Positions 5,312 to 58,849 of a stretch of DNA of 64,000 bases are shown one piece after another. Below the pieces are notes generated by a model that ran no database searches, had not been told where the DNA came from, and saw only the letters and a list, made by a program, of their open reading frames with translations. The number at the start of each line of letters is the position of its first letter. The first letter of the stretch is position 1. The position numbers and the translations under genes are program-made. Source of the stretch: Polynucleobacter sp. IMCC 30228 (GTDB taxonomy: Bacteria; Pseudomonadota; Gammaproteobacteria; Burkholderiales; Burkholderiaceae); NCBI RefSeq assembly GCF_021395205.1, contig NZ_JAJVCS010000004.1, positions 186,001 to 250,000 on the forward strand, in the 5' to 3' direction.

Positions 5312-6043
5312 ATGATGTCTAAACTTTCGCCGTCCGCTACCTCGATTGCCGTACCACTTGGGTTTAATCCGCAGGCGGTTCCGATTCAGTCTAATTGTGC
5401 TGGCGAGCCATCAATTGCAAGTAGTAGGCTACTACCCGATCAATTGCGCCAGCGTTTTATTGCGCCACCAATATGGACGCCGGAAATTACCGATGAAAAT
5501 CGCCATGTGATGGCCAGCGATATTATTGCGCAGCGCCAAGCACAAGGCCTTTCGACTCAAGCTGCAGTGCTGATTCCGCTGGTCTTACGAGCAGCTGGTA
5601 TAGCTGTTTTATTGACGCAAAGAACCGATCATCTTCACGACCATGCGGGGCAAATTAGCTTTCCTGGGGGGCGCATGGAGTCAAGCGATAGTAGCGCTGC
5701 GGTGACCGCCTTACGTGAGAGTTATGAGGAGGTTGGGCTAGCAGCTGATCAGGTTGAGTTACTAGGTCAATTGCCTGAATATTTAACGGTCTCGGGGTAT
5801 CGCGTTACTCCCATCGTAGGTTTAGTGCATCCACAGACCAATTATGTTTTAGATGAATTCGAAGTGGCTGACGCGTTTGAGGTGCCTTTAACATTCTTAA
5901 TGAATCCGGCCCATCACCAAGTGCGCGTGGCAACTAGCGAGCAGGGCAGTCGTCGGTTTTACGCGATGCCCTTCGAAAATCGTTTTATTTGGGGTGCTAC
6001 AGCAGGTATGCTGCGCAACCTTTATCATTTACTTAAAGTATGA
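5312..6043 (+). CDS. Nudix hydrolase, probable CoA pyrophosphatase (NudL-like)
   Basis: Predicted to hydrolyse CoA and its derivatives to phosphopantetheine and 3',5'-ADP. The 243-residue protein has the Nudix box spread over GRMESSDSSAAVTALRES and the following YEEVGL, preceded by the CoA-type signature DHAGQISFPGG, seen in the E. coli YeaB/NudL group. The first 90 residues, before AAVLIPLVLRAAG, look variable. The gene follows the rplS terminator by about 20 bases, so it needs its own promoter, which I cannot locate. Its TGA overlaps the next gene's ATG by four bases. Substrate is inferred from the motif only. Confidence 0.88.
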   Translation: MMSKLSPSATSIAVPLGFNPQAVPIQSNCAGEPSIASSRLLPDQLRQRFIAPPIWTPEITDENRHVMASDIIAQRQAQGLSTQAAVLIPLVLRAAGIAVLLTQRTDHLHDHAGQISFPGGRMESSDSSAAVTALRESYEEVGLAADQVELLGQLPEYLTVSGYRVTPIVGLVHPQTNYVLDEFEVADAFEVPLTFLMNPAHHQVRVATSEQGSRRFYAMPFENRFIWGATAGMLRNLYHLLKV

Positions 6044-7990: not shown

Positions 7991-9241
7991 TCAGCGGCTT
8001 TGCTTTAAATTCGCAATGCGCAGCGGTGCAGGGGGATGTGAGCTATAGAATGCGGTGTAGAGCGGATCGGGAGTTAAGGTTGACGCATTGTCTTGATAGA
8101 GCTTCACTAATGCTGAAATTAAATCGCTCGCAGACGATTTTTCAGCCGCAAAGTTATCGGCCTCATATTCATGTTTACGAGAAGCAAGGCTATTAAGGGG
8201 GGTAAGGAAAAAACCAAATACGGGTGACACCAACATAAATAAGGCCAATGCTAAACCGCCGTTATAGCCAGACAGACTCGGTGTGACACCCAGATCAAAA
8301 TAGAACCAAGGTTGCCCACTAAGCCAGCCTAAGAGTGCTAATACCACTAAGCTGAGGGCAAATGACACCAATAAACGTTTGCGGATATGTTTACGTTTGA
8401 AGTGGCCTAACTCATGCGCTAAAACTGCCTCGACTTCGCCCGGGTTTAGTTTTTCAATCAGCGTATCGAAAAAAACAATTCGCTTCGCCTTGCCAATTCC
8501 CGTGAAATAAGCATTACCGTGGGCACTGCGGGTACTGCCATCCATCACAAAGAGGCCTTGACTAGCAAAGTCACAGCGCTTTAAAAGTTGTTCAATTTGA
8601 ATTTTGAGGGGACCATCTTCAAGGGCTTTAAATTTGTTAAACAGTGGTGCAATAAAGGTTGGAAATAGCCACAGTAATAGGCCATTGAATGCAGTCCAGA
8701 CAAACCAAGTCCACAGCCACCAGAGCGGCCCTGCCTCAGCCATTAAGCTTAGGATTACCCACAGCAGTGGTAGGCCCAAAGCAGCACCTAAGACCACGCC
8801 CTTTAATAAATCGAGGCAAAACAGTTTTAGGGTCATGCGATTAAAGCCAAAGGCCTCTTCAAGCTTGAATTGCTTGTACCAACTAAAGGGTAAATCGAGC
8901 ACCCCAGTAATGATGAAGATGCTGCACAGTAAAGCGATTTGTTGCGAAATGCCATTCCCAAGCCATTGCGTGAGTTGTTGATTTAAGTATTCAAGACCCC
9001 CCAAGAGCGTGAAGGAGATTAAGACGATGGCACTCAGAATGTTTTCAATAGTGCCTAAGCGTAATTTGGCGATGGTGTAGTCGGCAGCTTTTTGATGTTC
9101 TACCAAAGAGATCCTTGTCGCAAATTCGGCCGGGACGACATCACGATGTTGGGCGACATACCTTATTTGCCGCTGGGCAAGCCAGTAGCGTATGCCAAAG
9201 CTAAGAAAAAAGGCGCTCAAGAAGATAATTGTGAAGGTCAT
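7991..9241 (-). CDS. M48 family zinc metallopeptidase (Ste24/HtpX-like)
   Basis: Membrane-embedded protease of 416 residues. The zinc site HELGH is at residues 276-280 inside [14 protein letters not shown], with a further glutamate ligand in the HEYEAD segment near 360. Hydrophobic helices lie near residues 1-20, 65-80, 100-115, 145-170, 180-205, 290-310 and 325-350, the multi-spanning layout of eukaryotic Ste24p rather than the shorter HtpX. Likely role is turnover of membrane or exported proteins; the natural substrate is unknown. It is divergent from orn, with only a few bases between the two starts. No ribosome binding site is evident before its ATG. Confidence 0.92.
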
Positions 9242-9864: not shown

Positions 9865-10488
9865 CTATTTTTTCAATGCACTTTTTGGTCGAAAAGCTTT
9901 CACTACTGCTTCATTCGTTTCCATATAAGGCCCGCCAATGAGGTCTATGCAATAAGGTACTGCGGCAAAAATACCTGGAACCAGTACTTTGCCATCAGCA
10001 TCTTTAAGGCCTTCTAGCGTTTCTTGAATGGACTTCGGTTGCCCAGGTAAATTAATAATTAAAGCAGCATGGTCAACAATTTCACGCAAGACTGCAAGCT
10101 GCCGTGAAAGAATAGCGGTGGGTACAAAATGCAAGCTAATTTGCCGCATTTGTTCACCAAATCCAGGCATGATTTTTGTCCCCGCCTCTAAAGTCGCCTC
10201 GGGGGTAATATCGCGCCGAGAGGGGCCAGTGCCGCCAGTGGTGAGAACTAAATCGCAGGCATACTCATCGACCAGCTCAATTAAGGTGACGGTAATGAGT
10301 TCTTGGGTATCAGGGATGAGGCGCTCAACAAAAACATGGGGAGAGACTAGGGCCTGATCAAGCCAAGCGCGCAAGGCAGGAATGCCTTGATCGGTATATA
10401 CCCCTTGACTGGCTCGGTCGGAAACCGAGACCAAACCAATCTTCAGTTCATTGGGGGTACTGCGGTGCCAAGCTTCGGTATGCTTCAT
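9865..10488 (-). CDS. mog: Molybdopterin adenylyltransferase
   Basis: MogA/MoaB-fold protein of 207 residues that adenylylates molybdopterin before metal insertion by MoeA. It shows KIGLVSVSDRASQG at the start of the fold, the TTGGTGPSRRDITPEAT signature, MPGFGEQMR, LSRQL and the INLPGQPKSIQETLE loop. The extended C-terminal part (PYCIDLIGGPYMETN) favours Mog over MoaB. It converges with orn (38 bases) and is divergent from pmbA (26 bases). Other cofactor genes, moeA-mobA-moaA, lie about 6 kb further on the same strand, so the pathway is only partly clustered. Confidence 0.92.
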   Translation of the reverse strand: MKHTEAWHRSTPNELKIGLVSVSDRASQGVYTDQGIPALRAWLDQALVSPHVFVERLIPDTQELITVTLIELVDEYACDLVLTTGGTGPSRRDITPEATLEAGTKIMPGFGEQMRQISLHFVPTAILSRQLAVLREIVDHAALIINLPGQPKSIQETLEGLKDADGKVLVPGIFAAVPYCIDLIGGPYMETNEAVVKAFRPKSALKK

Positions 10489-10514: not shown

Positions 10515-11861
10515 ATGTTTACCTATACTACTGAGCAATTTCAATTAATTGTGCAATTTATGCTGGCAGAAGCCAGTCGTTTAGGGGCGAGCGATGCCGC
10601 TGCAGAGATTTCTGAGGGCCATGGGCTAGCTGTAACCACCCGCAAGGGAGAAATTGAGACCATAGAGCAAAGCCTCGATAAACAAGTGGGGGTAAGTCTT
10701 TATTTGGGACAGCGACGCGGTAATGCAAGTACTAGCGACTTTTCACCGACCTCGCTACGGGCTACCGTCGAAGCCGCCTTTCATATAGCTCAACATACTG
10801 CCGAGGATGATTGTGCAGGTCTCCCAGAGTATGATTTGCTTGAAAAAAATCCCCTGAATCTCGATTTATTTCATCCTTGGGATATTGAAGCCATAGACGC
10901 TATTGAAATAGCACGCTCTGCCGAGGCGGCTGCATTTGCAGTGAGCCCCCAAATTCAAAATAGTGATGGCGCTTCTGTCTCAACGCATCAAGGTCATTTT
11001 ATTTTGGCTAGTAGCCAAGGGTTTTTAGGCGGCTATGCCTATTCACGCCACTTTATTTCATGTGCACCCATCGCGAGTACAACGGGCAAAAGACCGTCTA
11101 TGCAGCGTGACGATTGGTATTCCAGCTCACGTATTCCAACTCAATTAGCTCCGCCCGCCGAAATTGGGCGCTATGCAGCTCAGCGTGCCTTGGCTCGCCT
11201 CAAAGCACGGTCAATTCGCACGCAGCGTTGCCCCGTTATTTTTGAGGCGCCAGTGGCCGCTGGTTTATTAGGCTCTTTTGTGCAGGCTGTTTCTGGGGGC
11301 GCTTTATATCGGCGCTCGAGTTTTTTATTAGATAGTTTGGGTAAAGCTGTTTTGGCAAGTCACCTTAGCTTATATGAAGATCCACATATTCCTGGTATTA
11401 GCGGTAGTGCACCATTCGATGAAGAGGGTGTTAAAACACAGGCTCGCACGGTAGTTGCAAACGGTGTTCTGCAAGCTTATTTTTTATCGACTTACACCGC
11501 ACGAAAATTAGGCCTTCAAAGTACTGGCAATGCAGGTGGCTCACATCATCTTCGCTTGGCGAGTAACAATACCGTATCGGGCGGTTTACCCGCACTACTG
11601 AAGGCGATGGGTACCGGCCTACTCGTGACCGAATTAATGGGTCAAGGGGTCAATTATGTCACTGGCGATTACTCGCGCGGAGCCTTTGGTTACTGGGTCG
11701 AGCAGGGAGAAATTCAATATCCAGTTGAAGAAATTACGATTGCGGGTAATTTACGCGAAATGTTGCTTGATATTCAAATGGTGGGCAGTGATGTTTTAGT
11801 GCGAGGCTCGAAGGAGTCGGGCTCACTCCTCATTGGCTCAATGACTATTGGTGGTAAATAA
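10515..11861 (+). CDS. pmbA: Metalloprotease-associated protein PmbA (TldE)
   Basis: A 448-residue member of the TldD/PmbA family; in E. coli PmbA (TldE) and TldD form a heterodimeric protease that matures microcin B17 and degrades CcdA. Recognisable family segments are an N-terminal region with KGEIETIEQS and VGVSLYLGQRRGNAST, then SGSAPFDEEGV, STYTARKLGLQSTGNAGG and the C-terminal FGYWVEQGEIQYPVEEITIAGNL. The HExxxH zinc motif of TldD is absent, as expected for PmbA. The TldD partner is not in this window. It converges with folA, 22 bases apart. Confidence 0.94.
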   Translation: MFTYTTEQFQLIVQFMLAEASRLGASDAAAEISEGHGLAVTTRKGEIETIEQSLDKQVGVSLYLGQRRGNASTSDFSPTSLRATVEAAFHIAQHTAEDDCAGLPEYDLLEKNPLNLDLFHPWDIEAIDAIEIARSAEAAAFAVSPQIQNSDGASVSTHQGHFILASSQGFLGGYAYSRHFISCAPIASTTGKRPSMQRDDWYSSSRIPTQLAPPAEIGRYAAQRALARLKARSIRTQRCPVIFEAPVAAGLLGSFVQAVSGGALYRRSSFLLDSLGKAVLASHLSLYEDPHIPGISGSAPFDEEGVKTQARTVVANGVLQAYFLSTYTARKLGLQSTGNAGGSHHLRLASNNTVSGGLPALLKAMGTGLLVTELMGQGVNYVTGDYSRGAFGYWVEQGEIQYPVEEITIAGNLREMLLDIQMVGSDVLVRGSKESGSLLIGSMTIGGK

Positions 11862-45448: not shown

Positions 45449-46021
45449 ATGCCTTTTAATTTACCGATTGCATTAACTTGGTTGCGGGTAGGTGCAATTC
45501 CAATCATTGTTGGTATTTTCTATTTACCTAATAGTTGGCTTACTCCTTTTGAAAAAAATCTACTCGGCACCATTCTTTTTGTCTTAGCCGCATTAACCGA
45601 TTGGTTAGATGGTTTTTTAGCCCGCCGCTGGGGTCAAGAATCAGCTTTTGGCGGCTTTCTCGATCCGGTAGCCGACAAATTAATTGTGGCGGCAGCACTG
45701 TTGGTTTTATTAAATCTCGATCGGGTGCAGGTATGGGTTGCGCTGGTGATTATTGGGCGTGAAATTACGATCTCGGCCTTACGCGAATGGATGGCTCAAG
45801 TCGGAGCTTCACGGAGCGTGGCGGTGCATTTCATCGGTAAGCTAAAAACCGGGGCGCAGCTTGTGGCTATTCCCTTTTTGCTACTTAACGATATCCTGTT
45901 TGGCTGGCTTGATTGTGCGCGGGTAGGGAGTTGGTTAATTTGGGTCGCTGCCCTATTAACGCTGTGGTCGATGTTTTATTATTTGCAAAAAGCCTTCCCT
46001 CAATTGGTTGATAAGCAGTAA
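45449..46021 (+). CDS. pgsA: CDP-diacylglycerol--glycerol-3-phosphate 3-phosphatidyltransferase
   Basis: Makes phosphatidylglycerol phosphate. The 190-residue membrane protein carries the CDP-alcohol phosphotransferase motif in DWLDGFLARRWGQESAFGGF and the following LDPVADKL, with all conserved Asp, Gly and Arg residues. About five hydrophobic helices are visible. In many proteobacteria pgsA follows uvrC and precedes a tRNA-Gly gene, the arrangement found here. Confidence 0.95.
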   Translation: MPFNLPIALTWLRVGAIPIIVGIFYLPNSWLTPFEKNLLGTILFVLAALTDWLDGFLARRWGQESAFGGFLDPVADKLIVAAALLVLLNLDRVQVWVALVIIGREITISALREWMAQVGASRSVAVHFIGKLKTGAQLVAIPFLLLNDILFGWLDCARVGSWLIWVAALLTLWSMFYYLQKAFPQLVDKQ

Positions 46022-46043
46022 AGAGGCAGGTTAAGGGATTATT

Positions 46044-46052
46044 TGCTAAACT
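46044..46052 (+). promoter_or_regulatory. Possible extended -10 promoter of tRNA-Gly
   Basis: TGCTAAACT fits an extended -10 and is followed by a GC-rich discriminator (AGCGCCC), as in stringently controlled stable-RNA promoters. It lies about 13 bases before the tRNA. No clear -35 element is seen. Confidence 0.35.
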
Positions 46053-46065
46053 AGCGCCCTATTAC

Positions 46066-46141
46066 GCGGGAATAGCTCAGTTGGTAGAGCGCAACCTTGC
46101 CAAGGTTGAGGTCGCGAGTTCGAGCCTCGTTTCCCGCTCCA
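46066..46141 (+). tRNA. tRNA-Gly (anticodon GCC)
   Basis: A 76-base cloverleaf: acceptor stem GCGGGAA with TTCCCGC, D arm containing AGCTCAGTTGGTAGAGC, anticodon stem-loop with CTTGCCAAG giving anticodon GCC, T arm with GTTCGAG, discriminator T and encoded CCA end. It follows pgsA by 44 bases. Confidence 0.97.
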
Positions 46142-46147
46142 AGTTCG

Positions 46148-46176
46148 ATGGGAAGCCCTAAAAAGCTTCCCATTTT
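46148..46176 (+). terminator. Terminator-like hairpin between tRNA-Gly and tRNA-Cys
   Basis: ATGGGAAGC and GCTTCCCAT pair perfectly over nine bases around a CCTAAAAA loop and are followed by TTTT. This would separate the two tRNA transcripts or act as a processing site; only 14 bases remain before tRNA-Cys. Confidence 0.7.
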
Positions 46177-46190
46177 CGCTTCGAGAATTT

Positions 46191-46264
46191 GGTGCGTTGG
46201 CCGAGTGGTTAGGCCGGAGCCTGCAAAGCTTCTTACGGGGGTTCGATTCCCTCACGCACCTCCA
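46191..46264 (+). tRNA. tRNA-Cys (anticodon GCA)
   Basis: A 74-base cloverleaf: acceptor stem GGTGCGT with ACGCACC, D arm containing GCCGAGTGGTTAGGC, anticodon loop CTGCAAA giving anticodon GCA, short variable region, T arm with GTTCGATTCC, discriminator T (U73, the main cysteine identity base) and encoded CCA. Confidence 0.96.
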
Positions 46265-46384
46265 CTTATCTTCATTTAGCCCCCTTTATCCTGTAGTTGA
46301 GGCCTCAATGCCACTGCTTGACGAAATTCGAATGCACCCTAAAATGGGAATAGTTCTTTTTCTATATCGCTGAAAGACACGGTG

Positions 46385-46834
46385 ATGCGCAAAATCTTAT
46401 TTAGTTGTTTGTTCCCCTGCTTCCTCATTGCCTGCGCAAGCTCGGGTTCGGGTGATATCGCCACTGGTACGCCCGATGAAATTAACCAAACTCAAGCTGA
46501 ATTATTGGGCGGTTTACCCTTACCCACTGGCGCGCGCATCATTGGTGCCGAGTCTTTAATTATTGGCAGAGGCGATGCCTGGGTGGGGCGCGTGGTATTG
46601 AGCGGTTTGCAAACCCCAACTGATATTTATGCATTTTTTCAGTCTGAGTTTCCTAAAGCAGGATGGACTACGATTAGCGCCGTTAAGGCGAAATGGAGTA
46701 TTTTGGTTTTTACCAAGGGTGACCGCACTGTGCTGGTTGAAGTTGCTGATGGTTCGATGGTGGGACCAAAATCACAGATCATCCTCACTTCATCGCCAAA
46801 AAACGCCAATGTGGTTGCACCGACAAAAAAGTAA
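46385..46834 (+). CDS. Hypothetical lipoprotein
   Basis: A 149-residue secreted protein with a basic start (MRKILFS), a short hydrophobic core and the lipobox FLIACASS, so the lipidated cysteine is near residue 18. The mature part has a VVLSGLQTPTDIYAFFQSEFPKAGW region in outline, recalling small proteins that pair a substrate with a beta-sheet core, but I cannot name the family. The end is Lys/Pro rich. GTG one codon earlier is an alternative start. It lies downstream of the tRNA genes and converges with lexA (13 bases). Confidence 0.75.
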   Translation: MRKILFSCLFPCFLIACASSGSGDIATGTPDEINQTQAELLGGLPLPTGARIIGAESLIIGRGDAWVGRVVLSGLQTPTDIYAFFQSEFPKAGWTTISAVKAKWSILVFTKGDRTVLVEVADGSMVGPKSQIILTSSPKNANVVAPTKK

Positions 46835-46847
46835 GACTAACTTCGGC

Positions 46848-47552
46848 TTATAAACCCTGCGAGCGAATTAAGCCAACCGCCTGACCTTCAACGGCAAAGT
46901 TAGGCTGGCGCGCATCGACTAAGATGTTTTTAAAGTCGGGATTCTCTGCCTGTAATTCAATTACCAAGCCCTGCGCCGTCCTTTTTTGGTGCCAACGTTT
47001 TACGGTAACTTCATCATCTAGCCGAGCTACCACGATATCCCCGTTGCGCACTTCACTGGTTTTTTTCACGGCTAAATAATCGCCATCGAAAATGCCTGCA
47101 TCGCGCATGCTCATCCCTTTTACTTTTAATAAATAATCAGCACCTTTACTAAATAAGCTGGGGTCAATTGGCACTTGTTTTTCAATATGTTCAATTGCCA
47201 TAATGGGCGAGCCAGCAGCTACTCGACCAATGAGGGGTAGGGTTAATTGCTGTAAGGCCACTGAGGGCAGTGCCATTTGGTAAGCATGTTGCGCGCGCCT
47301 TTGCGTATGTTGGGGGGGAATCCGAATTCCACGAGAGGTACCAGGACTTAACTCAACATACCCTTTGCGGGCGAGGGCACGCAGGTGCTCCTCAGCGGCA
47401 TTGGCCGAAGCAAAGCCCAGTCGAGTAGCGATTTCAGCGCGGGTAGGCGGCAAACCACTTTCTTCAATAGATTGAGAGATAAGGGCCAAAATCTCTCCCT
47501 GGCGGGGGGTTAATTTGGGTAAATTGAGAAATTCGACTGTATTTATGTCCAT
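46848..47552 (-). CDS. lexA: SOS repressor LexA
   Basis: Repressor of the SOS DNA-damage regulon, inactivated by RecA-stimulated self-cleavage. The 234-residue protein has the N-terminal winged helix ([12 protein letters not shown], then [27 protein letters not shown] in outline), the A113-G114 cleavage site in GRVAAGSPI, catalytic S148 in KGMSMRD and K185 in EVTVKRW. About ten extra residues ([10 protein letters not shown]) precede the usual start, and no other start codon lies between them. Its operator touches the start codon and the predicted transcription start coincides with the ATG. Confidence 0.97.
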
Positions 47553-47553
47553 A

Positions 47554-47569
47554 CTGATATTGTATACAG
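47554..47569. promoter_or_regulatory. LexA operator (SOS box) at lexA
   Basis: CTGATATTGTATACAG is a near-palindrome of the form CTG-N10-CAG, matching the proteobacterial LexA consensus. It begins one base upstream of the lexA start codon and covers the -10 hexamer, as expected for autorepression. Confidence 0.88.
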
Positions 47570-47586
47570 TAGTTTTGATACTTCAA
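47559..47586 (-). promoter_or_regulatory. Promoter of lexA, predicted leaderless
   Basis: On the minus strand TTGAAG (-35, 47581-47586) and TACAAT (-10, 47559-47564) are 16 bases apart. The A of the lexA ATG is the seventh base after the -10, the usual transcription start distance, and no ribosome binding site fits between. The mRNA is therefore probably leaderless or nearly so. Confidence 0.6.
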
Positions 47587-47719
47587 GAACTTTTATCGAC
47601 TGAATGCCCTTAAAACCACGAAAATTTATCATTAAACCCCCAAAAAAATGCTCCCATGCCTGCCCAAGCGGCTTTTTAAGCCTCGAGGGCGCTGAATTTG
47701 AGTCTTGAGCAGTCTTTTT

Positions 47720-47728
47720 TGCTAGAAT
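47720..47728 (+). promoter_or_regulatory. Extended -10 promoter of the rpsF operon
   Basis: TGCTAGAAT, the same nine bases as at rpmF, lies 142 bases before rpsF. A TTGAGT hexamer sits 19 bases upstream, too far for an optimal -35, so recognition probably relies on the extended -10. The resulting leader is about 135 bases and contains the S6:S18-type hairpin. Confidence 0.55.
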
Positions 47729-47801
47729 AGCCCTCTTATCTGAATTTAGATAAATCGGAGTTGCAGTTTTTCTACAATTTGTTTCCACCCTTGTCATACT
47801 G

Positions 47802-47832
47802 GCTGCCGACTTCAAAACCATCAGAAGTTAGC
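47802..47832 (+). promoter_or_regulatory. Candidate S6:S18 ribosomal-protein leader element
   Basis: The leader of rpsF can fold as GCTG, bulged CCG, ACTTC, a ten-base A-rich loop, GAAGT, TAGC. The two stems (4 pairs including one G-T, and 5 pairs) flank a CCG bulge, which is the hallmark of the RNA bound by the S6:S18 complex in autoregulation of rpsF-rpsR operons. It mimics the S18-S6 binding site in 16S rRNA. It lies about 40 bases before the rpsF start. Assignment is by motif and location; covariation was not tested. Confidence 0.7.
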
Positions 47833-47869
47833 AAGACGCCCAGATGACTTTATCCAGAAGGAGTGTTAG

Positions 47870-48253
47870 ATGCGTCATTATGAAATAGTCTTTATCGTCC
47901 ACCCGGACCAAAGCGAGCAAGTGCCCGCGATGATTGAGCGCTACAAAGCGGTGTTAGCTGCTGCAGGCGGAAAAGTTCATCGCATTGAAGATTGGGGTCG
48001 TCGGCAGATGGCTTACATGATCGATAAGCTTGCTAAAGCCCATTATGTTTGCATGAATATTGAGTGTGACCAGAAAACGCTGGAAGAGCTCGAACATGCC
48101 TTCAAATTTAACGATGCGGTTTTGCGTCACCTAATCATCAAGGCAAGCAAGGCTGAAGTTGAGCCTTCCGTCATGATGAAGGAAGTGCAACGTGAAGACG
48201 CACGCAAGCAAGCGCAAGCCGACGCACCAGTTGCGACGGAATCAGCTAGTTAA
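47870..48253 (+). CDS. rpsF: 30S ribosomal protein S6
   Basis: Small-subunit protein of 127 residues beginning [21 protein letters not shown], with [22 protein letters not shown] in outline and [12 protein letters not shown]6 pairs with S18 in the 30S platform. An AAGGAG ribosome binding site lies 9 bases upstream. First gene of rpsF-priB-rpsR-rplI, with a leader that probably binds the S6:S18 dimer for feedback control. It is divergent from lexA. Confidence 0.98.
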
Positions 48254-48303
48254 TTTAAGAGAAATACGGAGGCGATAGAGCGTAAGCAAGTGGCGGAACG
48301 GCG

Positions 48304-48597
48304 TTGAATCATTTCACCCTAACTGCTTCCCTGGTATCCAAAGACGCGATTCGATTTACCCCAGCAGGTCTACCCGTGATGCATTGCCAACTTGAGTATG
48401 TTGGCGAGGTTAGCGAAGTAGCCATGCCAAGGAAAATTCAGATGCGTGTTGAGGCAATTGCGATTGGCCCTGTACAGCGGGGTTTAGAGCAAATGAACCT
48501 AGGAAGTATGGCAGAGTTTGCAGGATTTTTAGCCCCCAAAACCTTACGTAATCAGCGTCTTGTATTTCATATTACCCATATTCAATTGAAAGATTAA
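48304..48597 (+). CDS. priB: Primosomal replication protein N
   Basis: Single-stranded DNA-binding protein of the OB-fold class that helps PriA restart stalled forks. The 97-residue protein has the SSB-like pattern [28 protein letters not shown] in outline, and the location between rpsF and rpsR is diagnostic. The start is a TTG at 48304: an in-frame TAA lies at 48283-48285 and no ATG or GTG follows before the conserved strand. Weak initiation would suit its low abundance between two ribosomal genes. Confidence 0.92.
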
Positions 48598-48610
48598 AGA
48601 GGAATTCATC

Positions 48611-48883
48611 ATGGCGTTTGGAAAGAAACCCGATTTCAAAAAGAAACCCGCGCAAAACCCATTGTTTAAGCGGAAGCGTTATTGTCGCTTTACGGTCGGC
48701 GGTGTTGAGCAAATCGATTACAAAGATATCGATACCCTCAAAGATTTTATTGGTGAGAATGCAAAAATTACGCCCGCTCGTTTAACTGGTACAAAAGCAA
48801 AATTTCAGCGTCAGTTAGATACGGCGATTAAGCGCGCCCGTTTCCTGGCTTTGTTGCCATATTCAGATCAACACAAGAAATAA
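48611..48883 (+). CDS. rpsR: 30S ribosomal protein S18
   Basis: A 90-residue ribosomal protein with the S18 core [21 protein letters not shown] in outline, then the [17 protein letters not shown] segment and [13 protein letters not shown]. Partner of S6 in the platform and in the autoregulatory complex. AAAGAGGAA before the ATG is a good ribosome binding site. It lies 13 bases after priB. Confidence 0.98.
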
Positions 48884-48896
48884 TTGGGAGCCCTTA

Positions 48897-49349
48897 ATGC
48901 AAATCATTCTCTTAGAAAAAGTCACTAATTTAGGCAACCTCGGTGATGTCGTGCGCGTCAAAGATGGCTATGCACGTAATTTCTTGATACCCCAACGTAA
49001 AGCGCGTCGTGCTACTGAATCAGCGATTGCAGATTTTGCTACGCGTCGTGCCGAACTTGAAAAACTGGCCGCAGAAAAACTGGCTGCAGCGCAAACAGTT
49101 GGCCAAAAACTCGATGGCTTAGTGCTGGAAATCAGTCAAAAGGCAGGAGTCGATGGCCGTTTGTTTGGTTCAGTCACCAACCATGATATTGCCGATGGCT
49201 TAAAAGCCAAGGGTTTTGAGATTGAAAAATCATTTGTGCGTATGCCCACTGGCCCTTTAAAAATTGTGGGCGATCATCCTGTTGCGGTGGCGGTTCATAC
49301 CGATGTGATATCTAACATCGTGATTCGCGTGGTTGGCGAACAGGCTTAA
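48897..49349 (+). CDS. rplI: 50S ribosomal protein L9
   Basis: A 150-residue protein with the two-domain L9 layout: the N-terminal [32 protein letters not shown] in outline, a long connecting helix rich in Ala and Glu (about 45-80), and the C-terminal domain with [17 protein letters not shown]9 restrains ribosome frameshifting. GGGAG lies 6 bases before the ATG. dnaB follows 9 bases after. Confidence 0.98.
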
Positions 49350-56670: not shown

Positions 56671-57648
56671 TTAAGGTTTTTCGAGTACGGCCTGCACTAC
56701 GTAGCGAGGCCGTTGGCGAATTTGTTGATAGATGCGCCCAATGTATTCGCCCAATAAACCCAGCCCAAATAACATGACTCCAATGAGGAAAAAGGTTAGT
56801 GCAAAAAGGGTAAACACACCCTCGACCTCAGCGCCAATAATAAAGCGCCGAATTAAGAGGGTGGCAAATAAACTGCCTGCTGCCAAGGCCAATAACATGC
56901 CAAGAATGGAAAAAATTTGCAAGGGCACCACCGAAAATCCAGTGACTAAATCAAAATTAAGACGAATCAACTGGTAAACGCTATATTTCGACTCTCCCGC
57001 AAACCGTTCTTCATGTTGCACAGTAATTTCGGTTGGATTGGTAGCAAAGGTATAAGCCAGTGCTGGAATGAAAGTATTGCTTTCATTGCATTTTCCTACT
57101 AAATCAATAATGCGCCGCCGGTAGCCGCGTAACATACAGCCTTGATCGGTCATGGTGATATGGGTAATTTTTTCGCGTAAGTGATTCATCAGCCGCGAGG
57201 CACTTTTACGAAATAGGGTATCTTTACGATTAGTGCGAATCGTCCCCACGTAATCGTGCCCTGCAACTAATTCTTGGACTAGCGCATCGATTTCTTCGGG
57301 GGGATTTTGTAAATCCGCATCTAAAGTGATAATGTATTCACCGCGAGCGTATTCAAAGCCAGCCATGATCGCCATATGCTGGCCAAAATTATTTTGAAAT
57401 AACACGACGCGTGTGGTATCTGGGCGTGCTTCAAATTGCTGACCCAACATGGCTGCAGAACGATCGCGACTACCATCATTAATAAAAATAATTTCGTACT
57501 GTAGCTGACGTTTTTGAGCCAGCATATCCAGTGCAGGATAGAGGCGACTAAAGAGCGCGGGTAAGCCAGCTTCTTCGTTGTATACCGGCACAATAATGCT
57601 TAATTGCGGTGCATTGATGAGCGAATTGAGTTGCGTTGAGGCCGTCAT
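56671..57648 (-). CDS. arnC: Undecaprenyl-phosphate Ara4FN transferase
   Basis: Family 2 glycosyltransferase of 325 residues that moves Ara4FN from UDP to undecaprenyl phosphate at the inner membrane. Motifs: IVPVYNEEAGLPALFSRL, INDGSRDRSAAML and the metal-binding ITLDADLQNPPEE. Two hydrophobic helices near the C-terminus (about 232-262 and 270-300) anchor it. It is separated from arnB by 7 bases and from the formyltransferase by 9, a tight operon. Confidence 0.95.
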   Translation of the reverse strand: MTASTQLNSLINAPQLSIIVPVYNEEAGLPALFSRLYPALDMLAQKRQLQYEIIFINDGSRDRSAAMLGQQFEARPDTTRVVLFQNNFGQHMAIMAGFEYARGEYIITLDADLQNPPEEIDALVQELVAGHDYVGTIRTNRKDTLFRKSASRLMNHLREKITHITMTDQGCMLRGYRRRIIDLVGKCNESNTFIPALAYTFATNPTEITVQHEERFAGESKYSVYQLIRLNFDLVTGFSVVPLQIFSILGMLLALAAGSLFATLLIRRFIIGAEVEGVFTLFALTFFLIGVMLFGLGLLGEYIGRIYQQIRQRPRYVVQAVLEKP

Positions 57649-57655
57649 AGCGTAA

Positions 57656-58849
57656 TTATGCGCTGGCTTGATAATGGTGCTGAAAAACCCCGATTAAAGA
57701 GCTGCAAACGCGTTTGACATCAGCATCGCTCATGGCAGGAAATAAGGGCAAGGTCAAAATTGAGCGGCCAATGACTTCGGCTACTGGCGTCGTTTCTGCA
57801 AGGTAACCTAATTTTCGATAGAGCGAGAAATTGGTAATGATGGGATAGTGCACGCCTGTGCCAATACCCAGTGCTTTTAATTCGGTCATGATTTGCGACC
57901 GCTCTACTTTTAATTGCTGCAAAGGTAACAGCACTTGATACAAATGCCAATTACTATCACTAAAGTTTTCGGGAGGCAGTTGTAGGGCAAAGCCCTTAAG
58001 CGCACTTGTATTTAATCCGGCCTTTAATAACTCAAAATACTGTTTTGCAATGGCGACACGTCGCGCTTGAAAAGTGGGCAGATTTTTAAGCTGGTGTAAA
58101 CCAATAACGGCATTGATATCGGTAAGGTTATCTTTACCCCCTAAGACATCGACATCCATCCCATCTGGCCCATGCCGAGTAAGGCCTTGCAAACGCAGTT
58201 TTTCAGCTAGGGCAGTTTCATTGGAGTTATTGAGAACGAGGCAGCCTCCTTCAACGGTAGTCAGATTTTTATTTGCTTGAAAACTAAAGCTGACTAAGTC
58301 ACCTATGCTGCCAATGCGTTTGTCGCGCCAATGTGAGCCAAATGCTTGTGCAGCATCTTCAATCACTCGCAGGTGATGGGATTTGGCAATGGCGTATAAC
58401 TCGTCCATATCAACGGGTAAGCCCGCTAAATACACTGGCATGATGGCGCGGGTTTGCGGGGTAATGGCCGCAACAATTTGTGAGAGATCGAGGTTGCGAG
58501 TGCGCGGGTCGACATCGACAAAAATAGGCTTAGCGCCAACCGATAAAATCACATTGGCAGTGGCAACCCAAGATAGCGGTGTGGTGATCACTTCATCGCC
58601 TACGCCAATACCTGCTATTTGCAAGGCAATTTTCATTGTTGCTGTGCCATTGGCAAAGCAACGCACTGGTCGGTCACCAAAATAACGGCTTAACTCTGCC
58701 TCAAATTCGGCGACTTTCGGGCCCGAAGTAACCCAGCCCGATTGCATTACTGCTGCCACCGCAGCAATCGTGGCCTCATCAAAGCTTGGCCGAGTAAAAG
58801 GAATAAAGTCTGGCGGCGAAATCTGGCTTGCAGCGGTTTTTTCGTTCAT
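57656..58849 (-). CDS. arnB: UDP-4-amino-4-deoxy-L-arabinose aminotransferase
   Basis: PLP enzyme of the DegT/DnrJ/EryC1 family, 397 residues, that aminates UDP-4-keto-arabinose with glutamate. It opens with IPFTRPSFDEATIAAV, has VIEDAAQAFGSHW and VSFSFQANKNLTTVEGG with the PLP lysine, and GVHYPIITNFSLYR near the C-terminus. It lies between arnT (4 bases) and arnC (7 bases). Confidence 0.95.
   Translation of the reverse strand: MNEKTAASQISPPDFIPFTRPSFDEATIAAVAAVMQSGWVTSGPKVAEFEAELSRYFGDRPVRCFANGTATMKIALQIAGIGVGDEVITTPLSWVATANVILSVGAKPIFVDVDPRTRNLDLSQIVAAITPQTRAIMPVYLAGLPVDMDELYAIAKSHHLRVIEDAAQAFGSHWRDKRIGSIGDLVSFSFQANKNLTTVEGGCLVLNNSNETALAEKLRLQGLTRHGPDGMDVDVLGGKDNLTDINAVIGLHQLKNLPTFQARRVAIAKQYFELLKAGLNTSALKGFALQLPPENFSDSNWHLYQVLLPLQQLKVERSQIMTELKALGIGTGVHYPIITNFSLYRKLGYLAETTPVAEVIGRSILTLPLFPAMSDADVKRVCSSLIGVFQHHYQASA

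Follow-up and report, generated by a model that had tools for sequence, protein, structure and literature searches.

The lexA locus and its start region

The lexA gene of Polynucleobacter sp. IMCC 30228 lies on the minus strand of the 64,000-nucleotide stretch analysed here (hereafter the window), which covers positions 186,001 to 250,000 of contig NZ_JAJVCS010000004.1; all coordinates below are those of the window. Polynucleobacter are freshwater bacteria. The gene (46848..47552) encodes a protein of 234 amino acids that is longer by 12 residues at its N-terminus (residues 1-12) than LexA proteins with the usual start, the core opening with KLT at residue 13. Upstream of the ATG start codon (47552-47550), on the same strand, are the sequence ATCAGT (47558-47553), a -10 hexamer, TACAAT (47559..47564), whose 3' end stands 6 nt ahead of the ATG, and a -35 hexamer, TTGAAG (47581..47586). 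The spacer between the hexamers is 16 nt here, and the consensus position of the -35 in relatives fits 17. The -10 hexamer falls within a predicted LexA operator, O1 (CTGTATACAATATCAG, of the form CTG-N10-CAG; 47569-47554, minus strand), and one base, the T at 47553, separates O1 from the ATG. A second predicted operator, O2 (ATGGACATAAATACAG; 47552-47537, minus strand), runs from the start codon through codon 5 and takes in one further base, the first of codon 6 (residues MDINTV). The two boxes start 17 bp apart.

A first-pass annotation of this DNA had described the two hexamers with their 16-base spacer, the ATG at the seventh base after the -10 and the CTG-N10-CAG motif ending one base before it. 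This proved exact on the minus strand; its single operator left out the second box, which begins at the start codon itself. It was also right that no ribosome binding site fits and that no other start codon precedes the LexA core. The energy of Shine-Dalgarno (SD) pairing at the lexA start, calculated with the genome's own 16S tail, is +0.8 kcal/mol, that is, none, and neither ATG nor GTG nor TTG occurs between 47552 and KLT. Upstream of the ATG the lexA frame is open for ten codons, to a TGA, with none of these three triplets among the ten; the only standard start in reach in the window is 47552. Since the -10 hexamer ends 6 nt before the ATG, the expected transcription start is the A of this ATG.

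On these grounds, and on the comparisons with relatives given below, we hold it to be very probable that lexA is autorepressed through two adjacent operators and expressed from a leaderless mRNA, the start codon and the codons that follow it being O2. A leaderless mRNA, with a transcript start placed from the promoter elements, is most likely, and we infer from the positions of the boxes that LexA binds both O1 and O2.

A predicted second operator in the first codons of lexA

Putative LexA boxes were scored with a symmetric matrix derived from the lexA upstream regions of other Burkholderiales (56 loci, 52 distinct boxes). With this outgroup matrix, O1 ranks second and O2 third among the 63,985 16-mers of the window, placing two predicted LexA boxes at the lexA promoter, and O2, with a score of 11.1, is the best of the 2,202 window 16-mers that start with ATG on either strand. 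One 16-mer (at 57856 in a first version of the matrix) outscores both, so the matrix is not perfect. A stringent search of the window for an E. coli-type SOS box gave no match at 3 mismatches.

Conservation was followed in those loci of the genus in which the closest in-frame ATG upstream of the core is 24 nt or more away from it, neither O1 nor O2 being required (84 of 110 loci, 70 unique; the 26 loci left out are the leadered rows). Counted from the A of the ATG, mean identity over the 70 unique rows is 49% at -80..-40, 96% in O1, 94% over +4..+16 and 66% over +17..+27, the drop coming after base 16 of O2. Bases -35..-31 are conserved at 71-100% (mean 86%), against the mean of 49% at -80..-40, and the -10 hexamer at 84-100% per base. 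An O1-like box ahead of the ATG and the sequence ACAG at +13..+16 are each present in 70 of 70 rows.

The choice of codons within O2 points the same way. It was counted in 41 of 54 unique genes, those of the commonest core length (the 13 left out include a cosmopolitanus-like clade). Codon 3 is ATA in all 41 genes, a triplet that makes up only 12 of the 691 Ile codons in their cores, and codon 5 is ACA in all 41, ACA being used for 107 of 459 Thr codons in the cores. In core columns whose amino-acid agreement is 90% or higher, an invariant codon was seen in 0 of 68 four-codon, 0 of 16 three-codon and 2 of 61 two-codon columns. By this comparison two O2 codons are synonymously frozen, and O2 is DNA under constraint.

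Leaderless-type and leadered lexA genes within the genus

An exact match to the pattern O1-N-ATG-O2 was found in 147 of 186 Polynucleobacter genomes, and a reversed control pattern gave zero matches. With up to 2 mismatches the former is found in 164 of the 186 genomes and in 142 of the 144 better ones (completeness of 90% or more, contamination of 5% or less), a looser count that takes in leadered relatives. Among the 39 genomes without the exact pattern, one (G102) is a single base off in O1 with the layout unchanged, 12 are leadered or transitional relatives, two (G161 and G175) resemble these in the match listing, and 22 have no match at 2 mismatches, 20 of which miss the quality filter; this breakdown covers 37 genomes, G180 and G185 being left out.

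The 5' regions were read in 70 genomes of the genus, the 30 best matches and 40 picked for diversity. The leaderless layout was found in 58; the remaining 12 have an ATG farther downstream, either in place of the first or alongside it. In these 12, O1 and one base are followed by an O2-like box opening with GTG or ATG (for example GTGTATATAAATTCAG), usually by an SD-like stretch, and then by the downstream ATG. In one of them, an intermediate (L141, also L197), the two ATGs are both in frame. Several leadered relatives have a short frame that runs from the first triplet of O2 to a point just ahead of the lexA ATG or into it. Read by eye, the frame that begins at the GTG or ATG of O2 in L139, L140 and L142-L146 has a stop codon overlapping the lexA ATG (ATGA), an arrangement that could couple translation. 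In the family as a whole, CTGTATANWATNNCAG-N-ATG was found in 39 of 40 genomes of Polynucleobacter and in 1 of 259 of other genera (G244). The latter match was rejected as lexA, the frame there not being lexA; we take it to be GST-like.

The spacing of one base between operator and ATG, which the first-pass annotation had singled out for comparison across the genus, is thus kept in the 147 exact matches. The same annotation had proposed that one short stretch serves as operator, promoter and start of a leaderless message, and had named a conserved start codon elsewhere in relatives as evidence to the contrary. The genus comparison supports the proposal, extended by the second operator, and the same start codon is used throughout the main clade; the 12 genomes of 70 with a downstream ATG limit it, the leaderless arrangement being, by these comparisons, confined to a clade within the genus. 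The annotation's further idea, that 70S ribosomes may translate such a message preferentially under stress, is a conjecture on which the sequence has no bearing either way.

Reading frame, ribosome binding and phylogeny

In lexA genes of the leaderless type, the distance from the ATG to the core is 24, 36, 39, 45, 48 or 66 nt, in every case a multiple of three and free of stop codons. Taken from the first triplet of O2, the corresponding distance is 41, 46 or 47 nt in the leadered relatives, or 48 nt with an intervening stop, and 42 nt in the intermediate. That all six extension lengths are in frame argues that translation begins at or before the extension. Mean SD energies are -0.5 kcal/mol for the leaderless type (56 rows), -5.6 for leadered genes of the genus (14 rows, some of them near-duplicates) and -4.7 for the outgroup (56 rows). 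An AUG start without an SD, as expected of a leaderless mRNA, is therefore what is found, both at the gene studied here and on average over the 56 rows. On a tree of LexA proteins (75 rows, with 14 outgroup rows kept, identical proteins entered once and L197 counted as leadered), the leaderless or leadered label needs one change. Leaderless lexA may have had a single origin.

Evidence against the proposed arrangement and alternative explanations

Several observations weigh against a leaderless lexA with a translated operator. The promoter match is by itself at chance level, with 1 found and 0.8 expected in shuffled sequences; its score, being no better than that of shuffles, was rejected as evidence, and it is conservation, not the promoter match, that makes the case. 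The left half of O2 reads ATGGAC and matches CTGTAT poorly, and the middle of O2 has drifted in the cosmopolitanus-like clade (ATGGATACAAATACAG and ATGGATGCAATTACAG, with scores of 9.5 and 5.2). The constraint on codons 2 to 6 could stem in part from leaderless initiation and not from LexA binding. The 70 rows of the conservation analysis are not independent, most coming from one close clade, and on the tree leaderless and leadered lexA are parted by a branch with a support of only 53. Some outgroup lexA starts also do without an SD, with energies of up to +1.9 kcal/mol. Samples of four members of the genus (G032, G127, G149 and G114) gave no significant excess of leaderless-like promoters, and the other leaderless candidates in the present genome mostly lack a good -35. 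Finally, the start of the transcript, the start used by the ribosome and the N-terminus of the protein are all predictions from sequence comparison.

Some of these points would suit a lexA that is leaderless but whose positions +1..+16 are kept for start-codon context and early codons, O2 no longer binding LexA. The degenerate left half and the drifted forms of the cosmopolitanus-like clade fit this explanation, as does a predicted mRNA 5' end that is nearly unstructured (-2.3 kcal/mol, z 0.15, an ordinary folding). We nevertheless think it unlikely, because codons 3 and 5 are fixed as ATA, which is rare, and ACA, mean conservation is lower from base 17 on, the outgroup matrix places O2 third in the window and O2 occupies the same place as the untranslated box of the leadered relatives. 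Somewhat less likely still is an ordinary SD-less leader made from a promoter farther upstream, with the O1 promoter playing a minor part. The placing of the transcript start from the sequence would allow it, and weak SDs are common here, the median energy over 60 genes of the window being -2.5 kcal/mol. However, the single promoter-like match in 47450-47900 is the O1 promoter, the region -80..-40 is poorly conserved while the -35, the -10 and O1 are strongly so, and the neighbouring gene is divergent.

The ATG in O2 might also be accidental and the true start of LexA a non-standard codon farther downstream, as in relatives with the short form. Several outgroup LexA proteins do begin MIKLT or MLKLT, and residues 1-7 of the extension are modelled with low confidence, as expected of disorder. 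Yet six extension lengths that all keep the frame and contain no stop, together with the lack of any ATG, GTG or TTG from 47552 to the core in the window, make this explanation highly improbable.

Proposed mechanism and history

The leaderless reading with a translated O2, which draws on the sequence, conservation, the reading frame, codon constraint and the leadered relatives, would work as follows. O1 spans the -10 and O2 starts at the expected transcription start. RNA polymerase would begin at, or within about 2 bases of, the A of the ATG at 47552, and the 5'-terminal AUG of the resulting leaderless mRNA would start translation without an SD. LexA bound to O1 would block recognition of the -10, and LexA bound to O2 would cover +1 to +16, that is, the start point and the first codons. 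After damage both operators would clear, and RNA polymerase would make an mRNA starting at the AUG. With O2 opening at the ATG, the first residues of LexA, MDINTV, would be translated operator DNA.

Two or more boxes upstream of lexA are common outside the genus. At least two were found in 44 of the 56 outgroup loci, at a spacing of 17 in 18 loci, 19 in 15, 20 in 7 and 18 in 3, with three boxes in 1. The lexA gene of E. coli is leadered: after two boxes at a spacing of 21 come a GGGGGCGGA stretch and then the ATG. Like that of Polynucleobacter, it has two adjacent boxes, the first with TATACT inside it, presumably its -10. It differs in having an SD leader after the second box, in a spacing of 21 instead of 17 and in an ATG that lies outside both boxes. 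From these loci and the leadered relatives, the order box, box, SD, ATG looks ancestral and the start codon within O2 derived. The ancestor would have had the -10 in O1 and O2 in a short leader, followed by an SD and the ATG. Later, if this direction of change is right, the first triplet of O2 would have become an ATG in frame with lexA, adding the extension, and the SD would have been lost. The minority clade with an O2-like box in the leader before a downstream ATG suggests that the start codon probably arose inside O2. The N-terminal tail that it added appears to be a tolerated by-product. lexA would thus offer a traceable case of operator DNA turned into protein-coding DNA, and within one genus leaderless and leadered genes survive beside transitional ones, which have a short upstream frame or both ATGs. 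The arrangement also lends itself to a specific test, namely whether leaderless initiation matters for SOS recovery.

Leaderless repressor genes in other systems

The cI repressor mRNA of phage lambda is leaderless, and Polynucleobacter lexA would resemble it in being a repressor made from a leaderless mRNA. Lambda cI has been used in leaderless reporter constructs (PMC8138138). LexA of Mycobacterium tuberculosis was found by experiment, through tagging and frameshifting, to be made from a leaderless mRNA (PMC2897130). It is alike in this respect; it belongs to a distant phylum, and the consulted sections describe no operator containing the start codon. Within the same family as Polynucleobacter, 4.67% of the mapped primary transcription starts of Cupriavidus metallidurans are leaderless, with regulation and repair enriched (PMC7563307), and Burkholderia cenocepacia has 72 exact leaderless genes and 42 within 10 nt, 24 of them tRNAs, with regulators enriched (PMC4603805); the word lexA is absent from the main text of both papers. 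Leaderless genes were predicted in 9 of 71 beta-proteobacterial genomes, with a mean of 6.8% (PMC3160421). A search of a library of open papers turned up no report that we recognised of a leaderless lexA in Polynucleobacter, of a start codon within an SOS operator or of an SOS-controlled leaderless tnpB. Since a leaderless lexA is known in M. tuberculosis, leaderless expression of lexA is as such no novelty; within the literature searched, it is the translated second operator that appears new.

The LexA protein and its surroundings

The protein is a standard LexA with a 12-residue extension before the core. It matches the TIGR00498 lexA profile over residues 13-231 with 227 bits (curated cut-off, 110.95) and has both the LexA DNA-binding domain PF01726 (89 bits) and the S24 peptidase domain PF00717 (111 bits). 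A113-G114, S148 and K185 are invariant across 18 aligned LexA proteins; we take the first pair to be the cleavage site and the other two residues to be the Ser/Lys dyad. In the predicted structure, residues 1-7 have confidence values (pLDDT, predicted local distance difference test) below 50, the mean of the whole model being 71; such low confidence in the N-terminal tail is what a disordered stretch would give.

The divergent gene adjoining lexA (47870..48253, plus strand) is presumably rpsF-like, to judge from its sequence, and a match to it was found at 67 of the 69 loci of the genus with a full lexA. An open reading frame on the minus strand that overlaps the lexA start (47543-47821) was taken as mechanical. 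A search for an RNA element at the 5' end of lexA gave none within 46000-49000, the only two hits above gathering scores being tRNAs located elsewhere.

Leaderless-like promoters elsewhere in the genome

A -10-like hexamer 6-8 nt before the first ATG was found in 25 of 397 genes of this genome, lexA included, against 5.7 expected (P 2e-9), and in genome G016 in 7 of 67 genes against 0.3 expected. Samples of two other genera (G202 and G205) gave no significant excess, and a third (G189) yielded only 19 genes. The excess in the present genome, like the leaderless mRNAs mapped in Cupriavidus and Burkholderia, speaks for a leaderless lexA; it also means that lexA need not be special in the genome, and weakens the idea that lexA is unusual in being leaderless. 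As the other candidates mostly lack a good -35, some may be due to chance or to wrong starts. In the window, five further genes have a -10-like hexamer exactly 6 nt before the first ATG, with little or no SD and a poor -35 (2 or 3 of 6 matches), and are candidates for leaderless expression. They encode an M48 peptidase (7991-9241, minus strand), a PmbA/TldD protein (10515-11861, plus), a family-2 glycosyltransferase (56671-57648, minus), a NUDIX protein (5312-6043, plus) and a MoCF-like protein (9865-10488, minus).

SOS boxes abutting start codons of other genes

The pattern CTGTATANANNNACAG with an ATG within 24 nt, which differs from that of the CTGTATANWATNNCAG search, was sought in 200 Burkholderiales genomes. 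Among the 93 matches listed, 14 have a gap of one base and 12 a gap of two, against a mean of 3.0 for gaps of 3-24; boxes with several ATGs were counted more than once, and one of the matches at gap 1 is lexA of G016. Five other loci at gap 1 were read: imuA (L295), two genes for PA0069-type radical SAM proteins (L297 and L298), a gene for UmuD (L299) and one assigned to no family (L296). In the present genome, umuD has a perfect SOS box (L001; contig C10, 112642-112657, minus strand) 3 nt before its ATG, with no room for an SD after the box.

Genes for TnpB and IS605-type proteins also begin one base past CTGTATANAATTACAG. The TnpB gene of G090 (L227) has CTGTATACAATTACAG-T-ATG, and the IS605-type gene of G099, which recurs close to seven contig ends, has CTGTATATAATTACAG-T-ATG in the one copy that was read (L155). 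The sequences suggest that these are possibly SOS-controlled, leaderless genes for RNA-guided nucleases. Among four plasmid relatives of TnpB that were read, a box lies 2 nt before the ATG in one from Shewanella (L300) and 7 nt upstream of the annotated GTG in one from Variovorax (L303); no SOS-like box was found at the other two (L301 and L302).

We lean towards a broader interpretation in which one Polynucleobacter clade recruited the second SOS operator at lexA as a leaderless initiation region, so that the repressor carries a translated copy of the operator, and in which SOS boxes abutting an ATG across the Burkholderiales (at lexA, imuA, umuD, PA0069-type radical SAM genes and tnpB) mark leaderless or near-leaderless genes, which may include those of RNA-guided TnpB nucleases. 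For gene callers and the annotation of N-termini, SOS boxes that abut an ATG would then be better treated as promoters than as leaders.

Two more good SOS boxes were noticed in the present genome (L002 and L003; contig C8, 196598 and 589362). One lies about 230 nt upstream of a gene that we take to be MraZ-like; the other lies about 70 nt upstream of a presumably RecA-like gene, with room for an ordinary leader.
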